Shown here: positions 2,406 to 9,979 of the stretch, in pieces | How positions within the stretch are numbered: the first letter of the stretch is position 1 | How the letters are laid out: each line of letters opens with the position of its first letter | Source of the DNA: Cryomorphaceae bacterium | GTDB taxonomy: Bacteria; Bacteroidota; Bacteroidia; Flavobacteriales_D; Crocinitomicaceae | Direction: 5' to 3' | Assembly (NCBI GenBank): GCA_021299335.1 | Contig: JAJTGF010000010.1 | Location: 1 to 34,503 of the forward strand | DNA: 34,503 nucleotides | Position numbers and translations under genes: made by a program | The notes under the pieces: model-generated | The model's database searches: none | What the model was told of the DNA's origin: nothing | What the model saw: the letters and a program-made list of their open reading frames with translations, nothing else

Positions 2406-3152
2406 TTAAAGCTTCACAAATTTTTGTAGTTGTGTGCCAAAGTTATCTGTTAGTTCAATGAGGTAACTTCCGCTAGAAAGTTTGCTCAAGTCAAAGCTAG
2501 TTGTACTTGCATTGGTTTGTTGAACTTCTATCACTTTTCCAGTGAGGTCGCGCAGTGTGATGGTAGAAGTACCACCATTGTATAAGCCAGTCACTTCAAT
2601 TGATGTACTGGCCGGATTCGGCTGCAGGCTCAATGGATTGATTACCTGATCAATGACACCTCCTGAACCAACTACAATTTTGTAACCGTCAAAAGACACT
2701 GTCTGGGTAACAGGAGTGGGAGGCAAACCCGGGAAAAGCACCACCAAAACAGTTGCTGTGACGTCTACGGTAACCGGGAAGACGGCAATTGAGTCTGTGG
2801 TTCCAAAGATATTTGCGCAACCGTTGGCGCCTCCGACGTATGTACAGCTAGAGATATTACATGCGTAGTCAAAACCTGGAGGCAAGCCTTGGAGTGCATC
2901 TATTGTAAATTGTTGGATAACTGAACCCACAAATTGACCACTTGGGTCGATTTCAGCAGTAACAGTAGATGGCACTTTGAAGTTGATGTCTGTTGAGTAA
3001 GCCACATTAGGTAGTGCGGGCGGAAGGTTTTGGGTGGTGTCTGGCCAAATGCCGTAAGTGGAGTCCACAAAATTGGCGCCAGGCGTACAAGACTGACCCC
3101 AAGAAAGGGCATAAGTCATTGTAAATAAAGTAGAAAGTAAGAGTTTTTTCAT
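2406..3152 (-). CDS. Small secreted protein with T9SS type A sorting domain
   Basis: 248 residues. A signal peptide covers about residues 1-19 (M-K-K-L-L-L..., ending W-G-Q). The last ~75 residues form a type A T9SS C-terminal domain: Q-P-N-P-A-S near residue 177, R-D-L-T-G-K-V, F-D-L-S-x-L-x-S-G-x-Y, and the closing K-F-V-K-L. The mature body is only ~155 residues, contains G-L-P-P-G-F followed by a cluster of cysteines (Y-A-C-N, S-S-C-T-Y, G-C-A-N), and is probably a beta-sandwich. I believe similar G-L-P-x-G-F / C-x-x-x-x-C bodies occur in other Bacteroidota cargo, but cannot confirm it here. Substrate or role is unknown; cell surface or extracellular location follows from the sorting domain. 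Confidence 0.88.
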   Translation of the reverse strand: MKKLLLSTLFTMTYALSWGQSCTPGANFVDSTYGIWPDTTQNLPPALPNVAYSTDINFKVPSTVTAEIDPSGQFVGSVIQQFTIDALQGLPPGFDYACNISSCTYVGGANGCANIFGTTDSIAVFPVTVDVTATVLVVLFPGLPPTPVTQTVSFDGYKIVVGSGGVIDQVINPLSLQPNPASTSIEVTGLYNGGTSTITLRDLTGKVIEVQQTNASTTSFDLSKLSSGSYLIELTDNFGTQLQKFVKL

Positions 3153-3236
3153 GGTATGAGTTTATTGATTCTTGGTTAAAAGTAATATAATTTTTGTTTA
3201 AAATCTACAGTAGAAATACTTAAGACCTTTCAATTT

Positions 3237-3265
3237 TTTGCAGTCCGCAGCTTTGGCTACCTTTG
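3237..3265 (+). promoter_or_regulatory. Bacteroidota-type promoter for DUF4286-rsmA
   Basis: TTTG at 3237-3240, a 17-nt spacer, then TACCTTTG at 3258-3265, a perfect match to TAnnTTTG. The -7 box ends 4 nt before the ATG at 3270, so transcription is expected to begin at or next to the start codon. Confidence 0.65.
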
Positions 3266-3269
3266 TGTT

Positions 3270-3584
3270 ATGGTTATTTACAATGTAACGGTCAGTATTG
3301 ACCAAGCAGTGGAGCACGAATGGTTGGCTTATATGAGAGGCTCTCACATCCAAGACGTATTGAAGACGGGTTGCTTTTTAGAATGCCGTCTCTCTCGGGT
3401 AAATGGAGAAGAAGATGGGGGCTGTACCTATTCTGTCATGTATTTAGCCAAAGATCAAGAAACACTTGATCGGTATCAAGCGAATTACGCCCCTGCGTTG
3501 CAACAAGATCATTCCTCGCATTTTCAAGGAAAATTTGCTGCCTTTCGCACCACGCTCAATGTCATTGAAGCATTCATCCCATGA
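3270..3584 (+). CDS. DUF4286 family protein
   Basis: 104 residues. It begins M-V-I-Y-N-V-T-V and contains H-I-x-D-V-L-x-T-G-x-F, the block G-x-T-Y-S-V-x-Y, L-D-R-Y-Q, and the closing F-A-A-F-R-T-x-L-x-V. These match what I recall of the DUF4286 family, a small ferredoxin-like/dimeric-barrel-type protein common in Bacteroidota whose function is unknown. It has no signal peptide and is expected in the cytosol. Its stop overlaps the rsmA start as ATGA, so it is translationally coupled to the rRNA methyltransferase gene; this neighbourhood is typical. Transcription probably starts right at the ATG (see promoter 3237-3265). Confidence 0.85.
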   Translation: MVIYNVTVSIDQAVEHEWLAYMRGSHIQDVLKTGCFLECRLSRVNGEEDGGCTYSVMYLAKDQETLDRYQANYAPALQQDHSSHFQGKFAAFRTTLNVIEAFIP

Positions 3585-4237
3585 GCGTTAAACCAAAAAA
3601 GCAACTCGGACAGCACTTTTTAAAAGATGCTGGTACTTGTCAAAAAATTGCCAAGCAAGTCATCTGGACAGACAACACCCGAAAAGTGTTGGAAATTGGC
3701 CCTGGCATGGGTGCTCTCAGTAAATATCTCTGGGAAATTCCCGAAATTGATTTGTGGTTACTCGATGTAGATATTGAATCTATCGATTATTTGCGTCTTT
3801 TCAAGTGCCTTGAACACCGCAATCAGGTGCCTCAAATTATGGGCATGTTTCAAAAAGAAGTCGCGGTGAGGGTTGCCCAAAAGCCTGGTTCCAAAGAATA
3901 TGGCATCATCAGTGTGCTGTTGCAAACCTATTACGATATCCATTATTGTTTTACCGTAGATGAGCACGTGTTTATTCCGCCGCCAAAGGTAAAAAGTGGT
4001 GTGATTCGTTGTGTGCGCAATGAGCGCGATGCGCTCCCTTGTGACGAAAAATTATACTTTCAAGTGGTTAAGGTAGCTTTTAATCAAAGGCGAAAAACGC
4101 TGAGAAACTCTTTGCGTGTTTTATTAAAAGATGCGCCACTACCCGAAAAATTTGAACAACAGCGACCAGAGCGCCTTAGTGTAGACGATTTTATCGAACT
4201 CACTTGCTTTATCGAGACCTTGATCAATAAGGACTAA
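3581..4237 (+). CDS. rsmA: 16S rRNA dimethyladenosine transferase with internal deletion
   Basis: RsmA/KsgA normally dimethylates two adjacent adenines near the 3' end of 16S rRNA. This copy has 218 residues, while Bacteroidota homologues are about 255-265. Present: the N-terminal Q-L-G-Q-H-F-L-K-D block (8-16), SAM motif I E-I-G-P-G-M-G (38-44), the acidic pair L-D-V-D (61-64), G-M-F-Q-K-E-V (88-94), F-I-P-P-P-K-V (131-137) and F-N-Q-R-R-K-T-L-R-N-S-L (168-179). Missing: everything expected between S-I-D-Y-L (67-71) and the helix beginning L-F-K-C-L-E-H-R (73-80), roughly 43 residues carrying the motif III acidic residue and the catalytic N-F-P-Y motif IV. The frame is intact across the junction near 3791-3797. 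Both flanks look well conserved, so the loss is recent or an assembly artefact. It ends in a 14-nt convergent overlap with the MORN-repeat gene. Confidence 0.9.
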   Translation: MSVKPKKQLGQHFLKDAGTCQKIAKQVIWTDNTRKVLEIGPGMGALSKYLWEIPEIDLWLLDVDIESIDYLRLFKCLEHRNQVPQIMGMFQKEVAVRVAQKPGSKEYGIISVLLQTYYDIHYCFTVDEHVFIPPPKVKSGVIRCVRNERDALPCDEKLYFQVVKVAFNQRRKTLRNSLRVLLKDAPLPEKFEQQRPERLSVDDFIELTCFIETLINKD

Positions 4238-5933
4238 AGCCTTCTTGGCTTTGTGCCCCAAGTTCAACTCCTTTTTTGAATTGCTTCTTACTAACGAGTT
4301 GACCATTTTCGTTGTAGGCATAGAACGGACCATCTTTGAGCCCATTTTTGTAGTGGATTTCATAAACGAGTCTGCCATAGCGGTCATACTGCTTGAACAC
4401 ACCGTGTAGTCTACCATATCGGTATTGTGCGATGATTGTCGGGACAACCCCGCCCGGATAGTAGTTGGTCCAGGTGCCGTGTTTGAGACCGTGGTAGTAT
4501 TTTCCCGTTTCTTTGATTTGAAAATCGGCTTGTGAATAGGCCTCGTAAGAACCATGAAAATCGCTGACGGTTTCTTTCAAGCCCATAATAGCCATGCCGT
4601 CGGCGACATTTTTTTGCGTGAAAACTTTGTAATGTTGCTTTTCTTTGAGTCGGCCATTGTTGTAGTAACTCGTCCATTCCCCCACTTTATACCCTGCTTT
4701 GTAGGTGCCTTTTACCTTGAGAACGGATTCTGGTGAATAAGATTCCCAAAGACCATCTAGATTGCCATCTCGAAAAGATGATTTGTCTTTGATTCGGCCA
4801 TTTTCCCAGTAATTGAACCATTCGCCTTCTTCTTTACCGTTGAGGTACTTTCCTGACATGAGTAGGGTAGAGTCTTCGTACCAAGTTTGCCATTGGCCCG
4901 TGCGCAAGTCATTTTGGTAGCTACCTGTTCGATACAACGCGCCATTTGGATAGTAATAAGTCCAGTTTCCGGTGCGGAGGTCTTCTTTATAGTGTGCGAT
5001 GTAGGAGAGTTGCCCATTTGAAAAATAATAATGCCAAATGCTATCTTGTTTTCCTTTAGAAAAATAACCTTCCATATCGAGTTTACCTTCGGGTGTAAAC
5101 CACTTCCATTTTCCTGTCTTTAATCCTAACTCGTAAGCACCATGTGTGAGGGTATCAGTTTCGTTGCGCATCACAAGGTAATTGCCGTCGAGTGAATCTG
5201 CTTTGTAACCCACTTGTTTTTCTAACACACCGTCAAAACGGTAAAATTCCCAAAGACCATCTTTTTTTCCTTGATCGAATGCACCCGCAACTGAAAGTAC
5301 ACCATTGGCAGTTCTTTCTTCAAATGGCCCGGTTTTAAGTCCATTTTTAAACGTGTAGCGTTCTTTGACAACACCCCCCAAATAATAATTGACAATTTGC
5401 CCATTGCCATCTTTAATAGTTTGAGTGTGTAAGCTGTCGGGTTTCCAAAATGCCATTAGAAAGACGGTGTCGTTTACGACGTTTTCAATCGATTTTTCTC
5501 GGCCGTCTGTGTAAAAGTATTCCCATAAACCTACAGGACTACCCAGTTCAAACTGCCCTCGAACTAGTATTTTCCCATCGGGCGCAAACTCCCTGTAAAT
5601 GGAGTCTGGCACATTAAATTTATAATAGGATTCCTGTTTAACGCGCTTTTGCTCGTCGTAAAAAACGCGCTTCCCGTGCAAGCGTCCGCGGTAGTAGTTG
5701 GCCTCTTCTTCTAATATACCATCATAGGAATAAAAAAGCCATTTGCCGTGTTTTTCAGTGGTGTTTGGACTGGCCTCACTGCGAAAATAGCAACCAACTC
5801 CTTGTACATGTTTGTTGGATGCATCCCAATAAATGCGTGTTTTTGGACTCAGGTTTTCTTTAAGTACCTTCACTTCTTGTCCAAAAATGCTTCCGAACAC
5901 ACAAATAAAAATGAGGAGTATTCTGCTGCGCAT
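4224..5933 (-). CDS. Secreted MORN-repeat (YwqK-like) protein
   Basis: 569 residues from the ATG at 5933, which directly precedes a signal peptide (M-R-S-R-I-L-L-I-F-I-C..., cleaved near residue 19). Upstream in-frame codons lie inside the neighbouring LysE gene and are not used. From about residue 60 to the end the protein consists of roughly fifteen MORN_2-type repeats of 22-24 residues, with patterns such as G-L-W-E-F-Y, G-N-W-T-Y-Y-Y-P-N-G and G-x-Y-x-x-G-x-x-x-G. Such proteins are often annotated as YwqK antitoxins from similarity to short Bacillus proteins, but size and export make an antitoxin role unlikely. It probably forms an elongated beta-hairpin solenoid in the periplasm or on the surface. 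Only 7 nt separate it from the upstream exporter gene, so the two are co-transcribed. Function unknown. Confidence 0.85.
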   Translation of the reverse strand: MRSRILLIFICVFGSIFGQEVKVLKENLSPKTRIYWDASNKHVQGVGCYFRSEASPNTTEKHGKWLFYSYDGILEEEANYYRGRLHGKRVFYDEQKRVKQESYYKFNVPDSIYREFAPDGKILVRGQFELGSPVGLWEYFYTDGREKSIENVVNDTVFLMAFWKPDSLHTQTIKDGNGQIVNYYLGGVVKERYTFKNGLKTGPFEERTANGVLSVAGAFDQGKKDGLWEFYRFDGVLEKQVGYKADSLDGNYLVMRNETDTLTHGAYELGLKTGKWKWFTPEGKLDMEGYFSKGKQDSIWHYYFSNGQLSYIAHYKEDLRTGNWTYYYPNGALYRTGSYQNDLRTGQWQTWYEDSTLLMSGKYLNGKEEGEWFNYWENGRIKDKSSFRDGNLDGLWESYSPESVLKVKGTYKAGYKVGEWTSYYNNGRLKEKQHYKVFTQKNVADGMAIMGLKETVSDFHGSYEAYSQADFQIKETGKYYHGLKHGTWTNYYPGGVVPTIIAQYRYGRLHGVFKQYDRYGRLVYEIHYKNGLKDGPFYAYNENGQLVSKKQFKKGVELGAQSQEGFSPY

Positions 5934-5940
5934 AGCGATC

Positions 5941-6603
5941 TTAAAAAATGACTCGGAAAATGAAGAACAGGCCAAAAGCAATAAAAACACTTCCAATGAA
6001 TTTATTGAGAAGGTTCAATAATTGAACAGTCACGAGATTTCTGATTTTCTTAGCAGTAATGATCTTAATGACGTCAAAAGTAAAAAAGGTGACGAGAATG
6101 GTACCTAGAAAGAGAAACAAGAATCCGTTGCTGTCATCGGGGCTATCGTGTTTGGCCACTGAGGCCACACTCAGCCAATAAAAAATAACAAGCGGATTGG
6201 CGAAGTTGAGAAGAAACCCTTTAGCGATCATGAGCCCAAAGTTTTTTTTTGGGTTGCTGCTTTCTTGTAAATGGTATCTCTCTGTGACCTCTTCTAATTC
6301 TTGATCGCCGTCGTGTATTTTAGATTTCTTGAACAAATTGACAATTCCAAAAGCGATAAAGATGAGCCCACCCAGCACATCAAAGAGTTCTTTGTTTTTT
6401 CCCGAAAGGAGCGAATTGATTTGCTCGACAAAAAGGACCGACAGTAGGATATAAACGATATCGCTGAGCATCACGCCGAAGTCTATAGCTAATGCGCTTC
6501 TGATGCCTTTTGTGATGCTATTTTCTAGCAAAACAAAAAACACTGGCCCGGGGATGATCGAGAGGATCAGGCCAATTGTGAACGCGTGGAAAATCATATC
6601 CAT
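5941..6603 (-). CDS. LysE family amino-acid exporter
   Basis: 220 residues with about six hydrophobic segments. The N-terminal G-L-I-L-S-I-I-P-G-P-V-F-F-V-L-L contains the P-G-P motif typical of the LysE/RhtB family, followed by G-x-R-x-A-L-A-I-D-F-G. A charged cytosolic loop lies around residues 90-120, and N-F-A-N-P-L-V-I-F-Y-W near residue 132 matches the conserved N-P-K/L-x-x-x-F block. Family members export amino acids or related small molecules; the substrate here cannot be told. The start is the ATG at 6603; a second ATG lies two codons later. A TAnnTTTG box ends 4 nt before the first ATG. It is the first gene of a two-gene operon with the MORN-repeat protein. Confidence 0.88.
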   Translation of the reverse strand: MDMIFHAFTIGLILSIIPGPVFFVLLENSITKGIRSALAIDFGVMLSDIVYILLSVLFVEQINSLLSGKNKELFDVLGGLIFIAFGIVNLFKKSKIHDGDQELEEVTERYHLQESSNPKKNFGLMIAKGFLLNFANPLVIFYWLSVASVAKHDSPDDSNGFLFLFLGTILVTFFTFDVIKIITAKKIRNLVTVQLLNLLNKFIGSVFIAFGLFFIFRVIF

Positions 6604-6607
6604 ATAA

Positions 6608-6615
6608 CAAAAATA
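6608..6615 (-). promoter_or_regulatory. -7 promoter box for the LysE operon
   Basis: TATTTTTG on the minus strand, a perfect TAnnTTTG, ending 4 nt before the ATG at 6603. No clear TTTG lies at the expected -33 position. The spacing suggests a leaderless transcript. Confidence 0.5.
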
Positions 6616-6689
6616 GCTTTAAAAGAGCTAGAAATGCTTTTAGGAGATTAATGTTACGGACAGCGCGATGTTTATTTCAGGAAATGCAC

Positions 6690-6697
6690 TAAATTTG
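6690..6697 (+). promoter_or_regulatory. -7 promoter box for gene 6716-7075
   Basis: TAAATTTG, a perfect TAnnTTTG, 18 nt before the ATG at 6716. I see no convincing -33 TTTG at 17-20 nt spacing, so the assignment rests on the -7 box and its position only. Confidence 0.5.
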
Positions 6698-6715
6698 CTT
6701 CTCAATTAAGACAAC

Positions 6716-7075
6716 ATGAAAACTTTGCGTGCCAATCAAAAACTTGAACAAATCATTGCCAATGTAGAGAAAAAGGGCCTCGAGGCTCCGAAACTCATCG
6801 AAGACCTCAAAGAGCTACGAGAAATGGCATTGCTCGAACAAGACCCATTGGTCGTCAAATCTTTGCGCCTCACTTATGAGTTTCTTCAAGAGAATGAATG
6901 TTTCGACGTAGAAGCGCAATACGAAGAAGATGAAGAAGGCAACGAATACCCGATTGAAATTGAAGACAAAGAAAACTTACTTTATTTCTTGAATCTTCTC
7001 AAGAACGCCGATCACAAAATCAATCGCGAAGAAATTAAAGATTACCGTTCGGCGCTCAAATTAGAATTATACTAA
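6716..7075 (+). CDS. Small acidic protein of unknown function
   Basis: 119 residues, no signal peptide or membrane segment, no cysteine except one near the middle (N-E-C-F). It is predicted mostly helical with a very acidic central stretch (Q-Y-E-E-D-E-E-G-N-E-Y, about residues 69-79). The ends are lysine/glutamate-rich, and the C-terminal part I-N-R-E-E-I-K-D-Y-R could be a helix-turn-helix-like or coiled segment. I believe related proteins occur widely in Flavobacteriales, but cannot name a family. It is a single-gene unit: own -7 box upstream, an imperfect hairpin right after the stop, and a strong terminator at 7156-7178. The well-formed regulation says it is a real gene. Confidence 0.75.
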   Translation: MKTLRANQKLEQIIANVEKKGLEAPKLIEDLKELREMALLEQDPLVVKSLRLTYEFLQENECFDVEAQYEEDEEGNEYPIEIEDKENLLYFLNLLKNADHKINREEIKDYRSALKLELY

Positions 7076-7077
7076 GC

Positions 7078-7136
7078 AACCAAAACCGAACAACACTCGT
7101 CTCGATAAAAAGAGCAAGTCATTGTTCATTTTGGTT
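7078..7136 (+). other. Long imperfect inverted repeat after gene 6716-7075
   Basis: Arms AACCAAAA-CC-GAACAA (7078-7093) and TTGTTC-A-TTTTGGTT (7122-7136) pair over 8 + 6 bp with one small internal loop, around a 28-nt apical region. It begins 2 nt after the stop codon and lies before the strong terminator at 7156, so the mRNA would carry two consecutive 3' structures. It may be an mRNA-stabilising hairpin or a 3'-UTR-derived small RNA; neither is shown. Confidence 0.5.
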
Positions 7137-7155
7137 TTAATTATCTTGCAGAAGA

Positions 7156-7183
7156 ACCTGGAATTCCGTTCCAGGTTTTTTTA
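7156..7183 (+). terminator. Strong intrinsic terminator
   Basis: Perfect 9-bp stem AACCTGGAA (7156-7164) / TTCCAGGTT (7170-7178) with a 5-nt loop, followed by TTTTT. It ends transcription from gene 6716-7075. The T-tract overlaps the stop codon of the convergent nuclease gene (TTA 7181-7183). Confidence 0.9.
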
Positions 7184-9979
7184 TGTACAAAACTGACAGT
7201 AATTCGATTTTGGAGTATGCGTAAAGGGTACCTGTTCATCGAGTAAATCTTCTACAAGTGTCTGAACACCGTTATCGAATATACTCGGCACAATAGATAA
7301 ATCCGTGCTTTTATCCATGCAGAGCGCAAAATTGTCGTCTCGATTGATCAATGATTCTATGCGTGATTCGGCGGGTAAGTGACCGAAAGTTTCCTGAAAA
7401 AATAAAGAATAAAGACAAAGCTGGAGTGCATGCTTGGGCTTGGTCAGATTGGTATAGGCATCTTGCTTTTGGGACATTTTTACGTCGCTTTCAATGACTT
7501 TCCCCGATTTGTAATCAATGACACGGTATTGAGCAGCGCCAATCCTGTCGATGCGATCGATATAACCTACAAAGTGAATTGGAATTTGCTCTGGACCTAC
7601 TTGCACGGTGCGCGTGAGCTCAAAACGACCTTCTAATTGAATGATATAAAGCGGCTCAGAAAGTCCTTTGACAAACGCAAGTTCTTTGAGGAGCATTTGT
7701 TGGGTAAGGTCTAATGCCATTTCAAAACTCAATAGATTTTTACCGCGTTGAAAAAGCGCTTCGTTGTGATCAAAATACTTCATAAAATACTTGCGCAGTA
7801 CGTCAGGGAAGTCAGTGAGCATTTTGGCGATGTGTTGTTCATTTATGGGCCCAGGCGCGGGGGTGACCAACTTGCCTTCTTTGTCGCGGTGGGCATATGG
7901 AGTGAAGAGTTCTTCTAAGCAACTATGGATAAGCGAGCCAAACGTACTAGTAGCAATGTCTTCTTCAACCTCTTCTTCTTCGCCAAATTCAACCACATAC
8001 CGATAGTAAAAATCAAGTGGGCAATTGACATACTTGCGCAATGCAGATGCCGAAACATTTCCGGCTAGGTAAGTTTTAATACGGTTTTGTATGGCAGCCG
8101 TTTTCGGGATGAGGTTTTGATCGTTTTGTTGTTTGGCCGCAGGAATTTGATAGAAGTATTCTTTCCAGTTGACATTAGGATTTTGCTGTAGCCACTCCAT
8201 TTTGAGCTGCAATAGGTAGCGACTGCGCTCATGGCTACCCAAGACCTCGCTCGTAGAGGTGTAGGTAAAGATGAGTTCGCGCGCATGATGGAGCAACCGA
8301 TAGAAGTGCTGGGCAAAAAGACCTTGTTTGTCTCTGTTGTTGGGCATGCCAAAAGCGGCGCGAAGGTCCATTGGGATGATACTCTGAATGGGATTAGTGG
8401 GCGGTAATTTACCTTCATTCATGCCGAGTATGTAAATGCGCTGAAAGTCGAGTAGGCGTGTTTCTAAAAGTCCTGTGATTTGTAAACCATTGGTAGGGCT
8501 CCCCAAATAGGCCAGATTGGTGCGGGTCCAGTGCTGATAAAACAATTTTTTGAAACTGCTCAGCGCCATTTTTGGAAAGTCCGCGTCGAGGTAAACTTCA
8601 AACTGACGGCAAGCTTGTTCAAAGGAAAGTAAGGCCGTGCGTTCAAAATCGTTTGATTCGGGAATGAGACTGAGCAATTGTCGGTTCAGTTGGCGCAGTT
8701 GCTGAAGCGCTTTTTGCCAGTTGCCCTCCCAATTCAGAGAGAGGTTTTGCAGGAATATCAGCGTGGTGCTCTCTAATTTCAATTGGCCGACATTTTGAAA
8801 AACGCGGTTATTTTTGATCGTTTCGTATTCTACCGCAGCGAGCTGGCTTTGCTGTTCTTGGTTAAATGCCAGCGTGGTAAATGCGTGGTGGCAAAAGCGC
8901 TGAAGGTCTTTGTAGTAGAGCGCCTTGGTTTTGAATTTGAGTTGGTTTTCTTGGAGCTGAAAACAGAGATCTACCCAAGTGCGCACTGGTGTTTGGTCGA
9001 GCGGTAGCCCCAACGTAATATTGGCCTGCCCAACAATTTTGGGAATGTTGCGAATAGCAGCATGAACCAAAGCTTCGTCCGCGAGCAACACAAGTACTTC
9101 GCTCCAGTCTTGAACAGGATTTTCGAGGAGTTCTGTAGCTAAAACCTTTACCTGACCAATGTGCTGAGCACACTCAATCACTTTTACGTCGTAAGGAGCT
9201 GTTTGGAGTGATTTGGGCAGGTTCTCGGGAATTTTTTGTCCAAATTCCTGTAGATTTTTGCGTTGAAAATGCCCCGCTTCGTGGAATTTATTTTCGAGAT
9301 AATAATGGTCGGAGTCGATGATGAATTCAGCCTGCTTTTTGTCGATTAAATAGCTGATGATCCGCTGTTCTGCGGCGGAAAGTGCATTGAACCCAACAAA
9401 CATATAATGCATTTGCGCATCAAAATACTGTGCAGGATTTTCTGCGAGTTGCCGGTAGGCCTGTGCTTTGCTACAAGACTTGCGCGCTTTTAAAATTTCT
9501 TGCAGTCCGGCATGTAATTTGGGAATCAGTTCCCAAAATTGCATGAATTTTTTTTGTGATGCCGAGTAGCCTTCTTCGTCGATTTGCCAGCTTTCGAGTG
9601 CTTTGATGGAGGCTAAGTTTTGATAGAGTTGCCGATGATCGACTAAATAGCGATCGACGTCGTCAAAATCGGAAAGTAAGATTGGCCCCCAAGTCAGGTA
9701 ATCTTCAAATGGCAGCGCCTCCTCTTTTAAAACCTCTTGATAAACTCGGTAGAGCTGTAGTAATAATTGGGTAGGGTGCACGATGATTTTGTCGCTCAAA
9801 GAGCCAACCCATTGGTCGATAGTAAAGAGGTGAGGCGAAATCAGAGGCCCGCCGTTTGCTCGGTATAAAGCATTGGTGAGGTAGCGTTTGGCCCGATCAG
9901 ATGGCAGTAAAATAGTGAGGTTTTTCGGTGAAATCCCTTTAGAAAGAATTTGTTGCGCCAGTTGATCAAGGAATTTCAT
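7181..9979 (-). CDS. AddB-like PD-(D/E)XK nuclease protein
   Basis: 932 residues from the ATG at 9979; the upstream in-frame TTG at 10003 would overlap the previous gene and is less likely. The N-terminal half resembles an inactivated helicase core (no Walker A; P-S-D-R-A-K-R-Y-L at 25-33). The C-terminal nuclease domain has S-A-S-A-L-R-K-Y-V-N-C-P (643-654), the conserved His in F-G-S-L-I-H (685), G-Y-I-D-R-I-D (805-811), the catalytic I-D-Y-K-S-G-K (D822, K824), and Q-L-C-L-Y (853-857). This is the RecB/AddB nuclease layout, so a role in double-strand-break processing is likely. Cys653, Cys928 and Cys931 could bind an Fe-S cluster, but the protein ends one residue after the last of these, so a fourth Cys is not in the AddB position. 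It is downstream of TraB and hutI on the same strand, 16 nt after the TraB stop. Confidence 0.88.
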   Translation of the reverse strand: MKFLDQLAQQILSKGISPKNLTILLPSDRAKRYLTNALYRANGGPLISPHLFTIDQWVGSLSDKIIVHPTQLLLQLYRVYQEVLKEEALPFEDYLTWGPILLSDFDDVDRYLVDHRQLYQNLASIKALESWQIDEEGYSASQKKFMQFWELIPKLHAGLQEILKARKSCSKAQAYRQLAENPAQYFDAQMHYMFVGFNALSAAEQRIISYLIDKKQAEFIIDSDHYYLENKFHEAGHFQRKNLQEFGQKIPENLPKSLQTAPYDVKVIECAQHIGQVKVLATELLENPVQDWSEVLVLLADEALVHAAIRNIPKIVGQANITLGLPLDQTPVRTWVDLCFQLQENQLKFKTKALYYKDLQRFCHHAFTTLAFNQEQQSQLAAVEYETIKNNRVFQNVGQLKLESTTLIFLQNLSLNWEGNWQKALQQLRQLNRQLLSLIPESNDFERTALLSFEQACRQFEVYLDADFPKMALSSFKKLFYQHWTRTNLAYLGSPTNGLQITGLLETRLLDFQRIYILGMNEGKLPPTNPIQSIIPMDLRAAFGMPNNRDKQGLFAQHFYRLLHHARELIFTYTSTSEVLGSHERSRYLLQLKMEWLQQNPNVNWKEYFYQIPAAKQQNDQNLIPKTAAIQNRIKTYLAGNVSASALRKYVNCPLDFYYRYVVEFGEEEEVEEDIATSTFGSLIHSCLEELFTPYAHRDKEGKLVTPAPGPINEQHIAKMLTDFPDVLRKYFMKYFDHNEALFQRGKNLLSFEMALDLTQQMLLKELAFVKGLSEPLYIIQLEGRFELTRTVQVGPEQIPIHFVGYIDRIDRIGAAQYRVIDYKSGKVIESDVKMSQKQDAYTNLTKPKHALQLCLYSLFFQETFGHLPAESRIESLINRDDNFALCMDKSTDLSIVPSIFDNGVQTLVEDLLDEQVPFTHTPKSNYCQFCT

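Follow-up and report, generated by a model that had tools for sequence, protein, structure and literature searches.

The rsmA Locus and Its Internal Gap

The window, i.e., the whole 34.5-kb stretch of DNA analysed here, carries an rsmA/ksgA open reading frame (ORF) that is interrupted by an internal gap (Table 1). The ORF scores 171.6 bits against TIGR00755, which is over the curated cut-off of 171, and 112.6 bits against PF00398, and both matches fall into two stretches with a hole between them. Alignment with relatives gives a gap of 129 nt, i.e., 43 codons, in agreement with the sequence-only reading, which had estimated an internal loss of ~43 residues and ~130 bases and a reading frame preserved across the junction. 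Codon 72 (3794–3796) is joined directly to Leu73 (3797 onward), about one base being assignable to either side. The lost residues are 73–115 in the numbering of the relative copy L045, and residue 72 of the window protein abuts L045 residue 116.

The missing segment holds GDFL (85–88) and N106-F-P-Y109 (L045 numbering), the motif III acidic residue and the catalytic motif, respectively, and both had been proposed to lie there. GDFL is missing from the window RsmA since it falls inside the gap. Likewise, N-F/L-P-Y is found nowhere in this protein in the alignment, so that the motif has not simply been placed elsewhere, and NFPYNIS is kept by 29 of 29 relatives. The remaining blocks are intact, as anticipated: EIGPGMG (residues 38–44; SAM-binding motif I), FIPPPKVKSG, and QRRKTLRNSL are all aligned.

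The neighboring genes (2406–3584 and 4224–5996) encode a Por_Secre_tail sorting-domain protein, a DUF4286 protein, whose gene shares four bases with the start of rsmA, and a MORN_2-repeat protein in convergent orientation. A BLASTN comparison of the window with the related genome G022 yielded two colinear alignments with the rsmA gap as the sole break, and no gap inside these alignments exceeds 8 nt. Because the whole window is colinear with this single break, the rsmA gap is not a chance resemblance.

Table 1. The rsmA feature of the window and the further losses in the same draft genome.
Feature	Position	Strand	Basis or remark
rsmA/ksgA ORF with internal gap, 218 aa	3581..4237	+	ORF list; TIGR00755 and PF00398 matches, each in two stretches
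Junction where 129 nt of relatives are absent	3795..3797	+	Alignments with relatives
Retained N-terminal part, residues 1–72, with EIGPGMG and LLDVD	3581..3796	+	96% identity to G022 over residues 1–72
Retained C-terminal part, residues 73–218, with FIPPPKVKSG and QRRKTLRNSL	3797..4234	+	97% identity to G022 residues 116–258
Six further losses, 58–179 nt relative to G022 (contigs 12, 22, 24, 28)	L086:4123; L116:10451; L118:2790 and 7937; L122:4461 and 8045		
serA-like dehydrogenase			106 nt lost, frame-shifted; flanking parts 95% and 93% identical to those of G022
VTT-domain protein			179 nt lost, frame-shifted
Family III CoA-transferase			174 nt lost, in phase
DUF349 gene			93 nt lost at its start
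Lipoprotein-like gene			58 nt lost, frame-shifted; compared with G022 only
ORF end of G022			58-nt spot lost; compared with G022 only

Conservation of rsmA in Relatives

The lost segment is kept in all 29 aligned related copies and in all 18 copies taken from named MAG records (whose titles give MAGs of Flavobacteriales, Crocinitomicaceae, and Cryomorphaceae, among other labels), every one of which retains NFPY. When 40 genomes of relatives were searched, the window protein was split (about 1–72 and 72–218) around extra subject sequence in all 39 other genomes, including G039, whose rsmA copy is fragmented at contig ends. A genus-wide search covered 86 genomes, of which 80 reached the ksgA cut-off, namely, the window’s own genome (171.3 bits as the sum of its pieces) and 79 of the 85 others, which match essentially the whole profile. 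In G052, a contig end truncates the copy; G040, G059, G083, G084, and G086 gave only weak matches, none of them over the cut-off. No further genome of this species was found: the best mean DNA identity is ~77% among the compared loci, and the collection may omit the genome itself or one very near to it. Hence, the expectation that close relatives carry the full-length gene holds at the genus level (79/85), while its same-species form found no genome to apply to.

The genomes lacking a full match were also searched for neighboring genes. The DUF4286 neighbor was not found in G040, G052, G059, G083, G084, or G086, in a search run without a positive control. The nadD-like neighbor, queried in four genomes, is present in G084, partial in G086, and was not found in G040 and G059. 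In G084, which is 99% complete, the nadD-like gene is followed by a hisH-like gene and polysaccharide-like genes, which replace the DUF4286–rsmA pair (L074 = G084:C5:70000-86000, ~6367–9621). G084 may represent a real loss or move of rsmA within the genus. G001 has two full-length rsmA copies (G001:C322 and G001:C165), which are 63% and 54% identical to the window protein over its C-terminal part; this genome shows 5% contamination, and its second copy may be foreign.

Search for a Second Copy

The draft genome comprises 1,805,076 bases in 107 contigs and is 81.6% complete. With a full-length relative as the query, no second rsmA was found in it, only the two halves at 3581–4225 being matched even at E up to 10, and at the same threshold the missing residues had no separate match. 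The check for a second copy, which the sequence-only reading had called for, therefore came out negative for this draft. One candidate on contig C59 was rejected: it scores 117 bits (ornithine-lipid methyltransferase) and 89 bits with lipid N-methyltransferase models versus 33 bits with ksgA, all below the cut-offs. A gap that is real in this copy and compensated by an intact second rsmA in the unassembled part of the genome is scarcely credible. The incompleteness of the draft leaves room for it, but the copy at hand is the sole one found, the C59 match resembles lipid N-methyltransferases more than ksgA, and among the same-genus genomes only the contaminated G001 listed two full copies. Two further searches were made. 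There is no 16S match in the draft in which helix 45 could be inspected; among 14 control genomes, 16S likewise escaped this search in 5. The exact junction 27-mer had no match in viral contigs, which says little.

Same-Sized Losses across the Draft

The draft was sampled as the window plus stretches of 32 more contigs (numbers 1–32, picked by number; 321,811 bases) and compared with about 1.12 Mb of G022. Losses were counted if they measured 40–400 nt and left no more than 12 nt unaligned on the opposite side, these limits being fixed after the first examples had been seen. Larger differences, which are present in both directions, were left out, as were gaps of 15–39 nt, of which the draft has five and G022 one. 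Within 176,883 aligned bases, seven pieces of 58–179 nt are absent from the draft and present in G022, and none is missing in the reverse direction. For comparison, six other relatives aligned with G022 over 184,473 bases of this locus’s neighborhood show no loss of this size class in either direction. If such losses were equally frequent everywhere, the chance that the draft receives all seven and the controls receive none would be ~0.007; this figure is rough, since one reference serves all the sequences and the controls come from one neighborhood.

The phases of the seven losses are 0, 0, 2, 1, 1, 0, and 1. In a separate alignment of these sites, the rsmA gap is drawn by the aligner as 78 + 51 nt. 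Because only three of the seven lengths are divisible by three, as expected for about one in three such events, the kept frame of rsmA is no sign of selection. A gene-wise count points in the same direction: 4 of 118 G022 genes are in pieces in the draft, and 0 of 116 in the reverse comparison, where the four include one small frameshift outside the seven losses and the list omits rsmA, the DUF349 gene, and the CoA-transferase. This small frameshift lies on contig 22 (L116:7201) in a 621-aa gene. Beside the rsmA junction, 3–9 mismatches occur in 45 nt, i.e., no error excess, and this 45-nt count does not set the seven loss sites apart from ordinary divergence.

Several of the affected genes are otherwise conserved. 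The serA-like gene is nearly full length in 24 of 26 genomes, the exceptions being the draft and G006, whose only relative of the gene is 30% identical. Just left of its junction, four residues in a stretch of about fifteen differ from G022, which could match what poor read ends might give, although the 45-nt mismatch count shows no excess at this site. The gene for the VTT-domain protein (DedA-type) is nearly whole in nine of nine other same-genus genomes and had no match in the five genomes searched from the rest of the order. Of 14 other genomes, 12 have the CoA-transferase as a single piece, including G006, where the match stops at residue 324 of 356; G028 has it in two pieces, and G029 gave no match. 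In the draft, the DUF349 match begins at residue 35. It begins at residues 1–5 in 15 of the 16 other genomes of the genus, and G010 yielded no match; elsewhere in the order, the matches are weak, and most have later starts. Further genes of this draft that look truncated or broken are likewise suspect.

Constraint on the Retained Codons

Over the 215 codons shared by nine close sequences, the window rsmA has no private substitution where the eight others agree. Of the columns invariant in 29 relatives, the 56 that are kept are all unchanged in the window RsmA, and the gap takes out twelve more (the 44 deleted columns of this count include one C-terminal column; the gap itself is 43). Pairs with the window give pN/pS values of 0.04–0.14, versus 0.02–0.14 for pairs without it. 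As judged from these comparisons, the retained codons are under no loosened constraint and what is left of the gene is not decaying. Since the purely catalytic residues of a long-kept pseudo-enzyme should have drifted and show no sign of it, the gap is either very young or absent from the organism.

Origin of the Gap

In all likelihood, the missing 129 nt were deleted locally during assembly of this Flavobacteriales draft genome, and a normal full-length rsmA is most likely present in the organism. The gap is most likely an assembly error because the draft has similar gaps in conserved genes that relatives keep whole. Indeed, faults of the same kind recur in this assembly and on neither side of the control comparisons, and they occur without regard for the reading frame. 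Where coverage was thin, the ends of two reads or contigs might have been joined with little or no true overlap; such joins would drop the 58–179 nt between the ends, and the rsmA frame would have survived by chance, 129 being divisible by three. Counted against this explanation are the lack of an error excess beside the rsmA junction and the fact that two other losses are also divisible by three; in addition, real genome erosion could also yield several deletions. Misassembly, which the sequence-only reading had kept as a fallback, is thus the best-supported explanation of the locus.

The foremost alternative, a genuine, very recent deletion by which RsmA activity was lost and a non-functional, probably misfolded remnant was left, is improbable. 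The exact single junction within otherwise clean colinear sequence over 34.5 kb would fit it, as would the near-complete relative G084, which has no ksgA match over the cut-off. In its favor, too, Escherichia coli and Staphylococcus aureus survive the knockout of ksgA and are then kasugamycin resistant (PMC3534330). Yet, the six further losses of the same class lie in one draft, three of them frame-shifting conserved genes, and a strain in which so many genes erode would be expected to show private changes in the remainder of rsmA. The earlier suggestion of a strain without the modification finds no support, such losses recurring in the draft and being absent from G022 and six relatives. The natural absence of the modification does have a precedent, since Nanoarchaeum equitans lacks it, as mentioned in PMC7897474. 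Among literature titles and the beginnings of abstracts, no natural internally deleted bacterial RsmA was seen; such a report may still exist in print. A genuine loss would be a modest finding because laboratory strains tolerate losing KsgA and become resistant to kasugamycin (PMC3534330).

Less probable still, and by a wide step, is a shortened RsmA kept as a non-catalytic factor in ribosome assembly, which the sequence-only reading had proposed as a pseudo-enzyme. The kept frame and the intact SAM motif I and C-terminal blocks speak for it. However, the gap does not appear to be a loop: with modest confidence, the full-length model would lose two strands and the stretch up to and including NFPY. 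The lost stretch holds strands 82–84 and 102–106 of the full-length model, and strands 82–84, 102–106, and 132–134 are absent from the shortened one; these models (mean pLDDT 72 and 70, shallow alignments) were used only to see which strands go. Moreover, the purely catalytic residues show no drift, contrary to long idleness, and overexpressed catalytically inactive KsgA is described as harmful in E. coli (PMC3534330). The pattern of the other draft losses, three of them frame-shifting and none seen in G022 and six relatives, does not bear out the pseudo-enzyme either. It would be most surprising if a free-living Flavobacteriales lineage had kept an RsmA shortened by its catalytic motif and two core strands as an assembly factor, with A1518/A1519 dimethylation lost. 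If the deletion were real, the models suggest that a dead, probably unstable protein would be likelier than a binding-competent pseudo-enzyme.

Collectively, these observations indicate that the locus most likely reflects an error of the draft assembly and not a new kind of enzyme. As this case shows, a catalytically dead enzyme can be mimicked by an in-frame gap in a draft genome, and a cheap test exposes such a gap, namely, counting same-sized gaps in the draft and a close relative in both directions, together with their phase. A true deletion would mean that a nearly universal rRNA modification has been lost naturally.

Comparison with Known Systems

The locus resembles that of an RsmA/KsgA 16S rRNA (A1518/A1519) dimethyltransferase (TIGR00755, PF00398): both retained parts are 96–97% identical to the G022 protein, and the gene order in the window is the same as in G022. 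It differs in that the window protein lacks the relatives’ residues 73–115, including GDFL and NFPY. Local assembly errors have been described in the curation of metagenome-derived genomes, with 13 in one 1.13-Mb genome before curation (PMC7111523). There, the errors are detected by a lack of read support, whereas the losses in the present draft are known from sequence comparison. The likeness between the two lies in several short, frame-blind faults within one draft, in genes that are whole in relatives.
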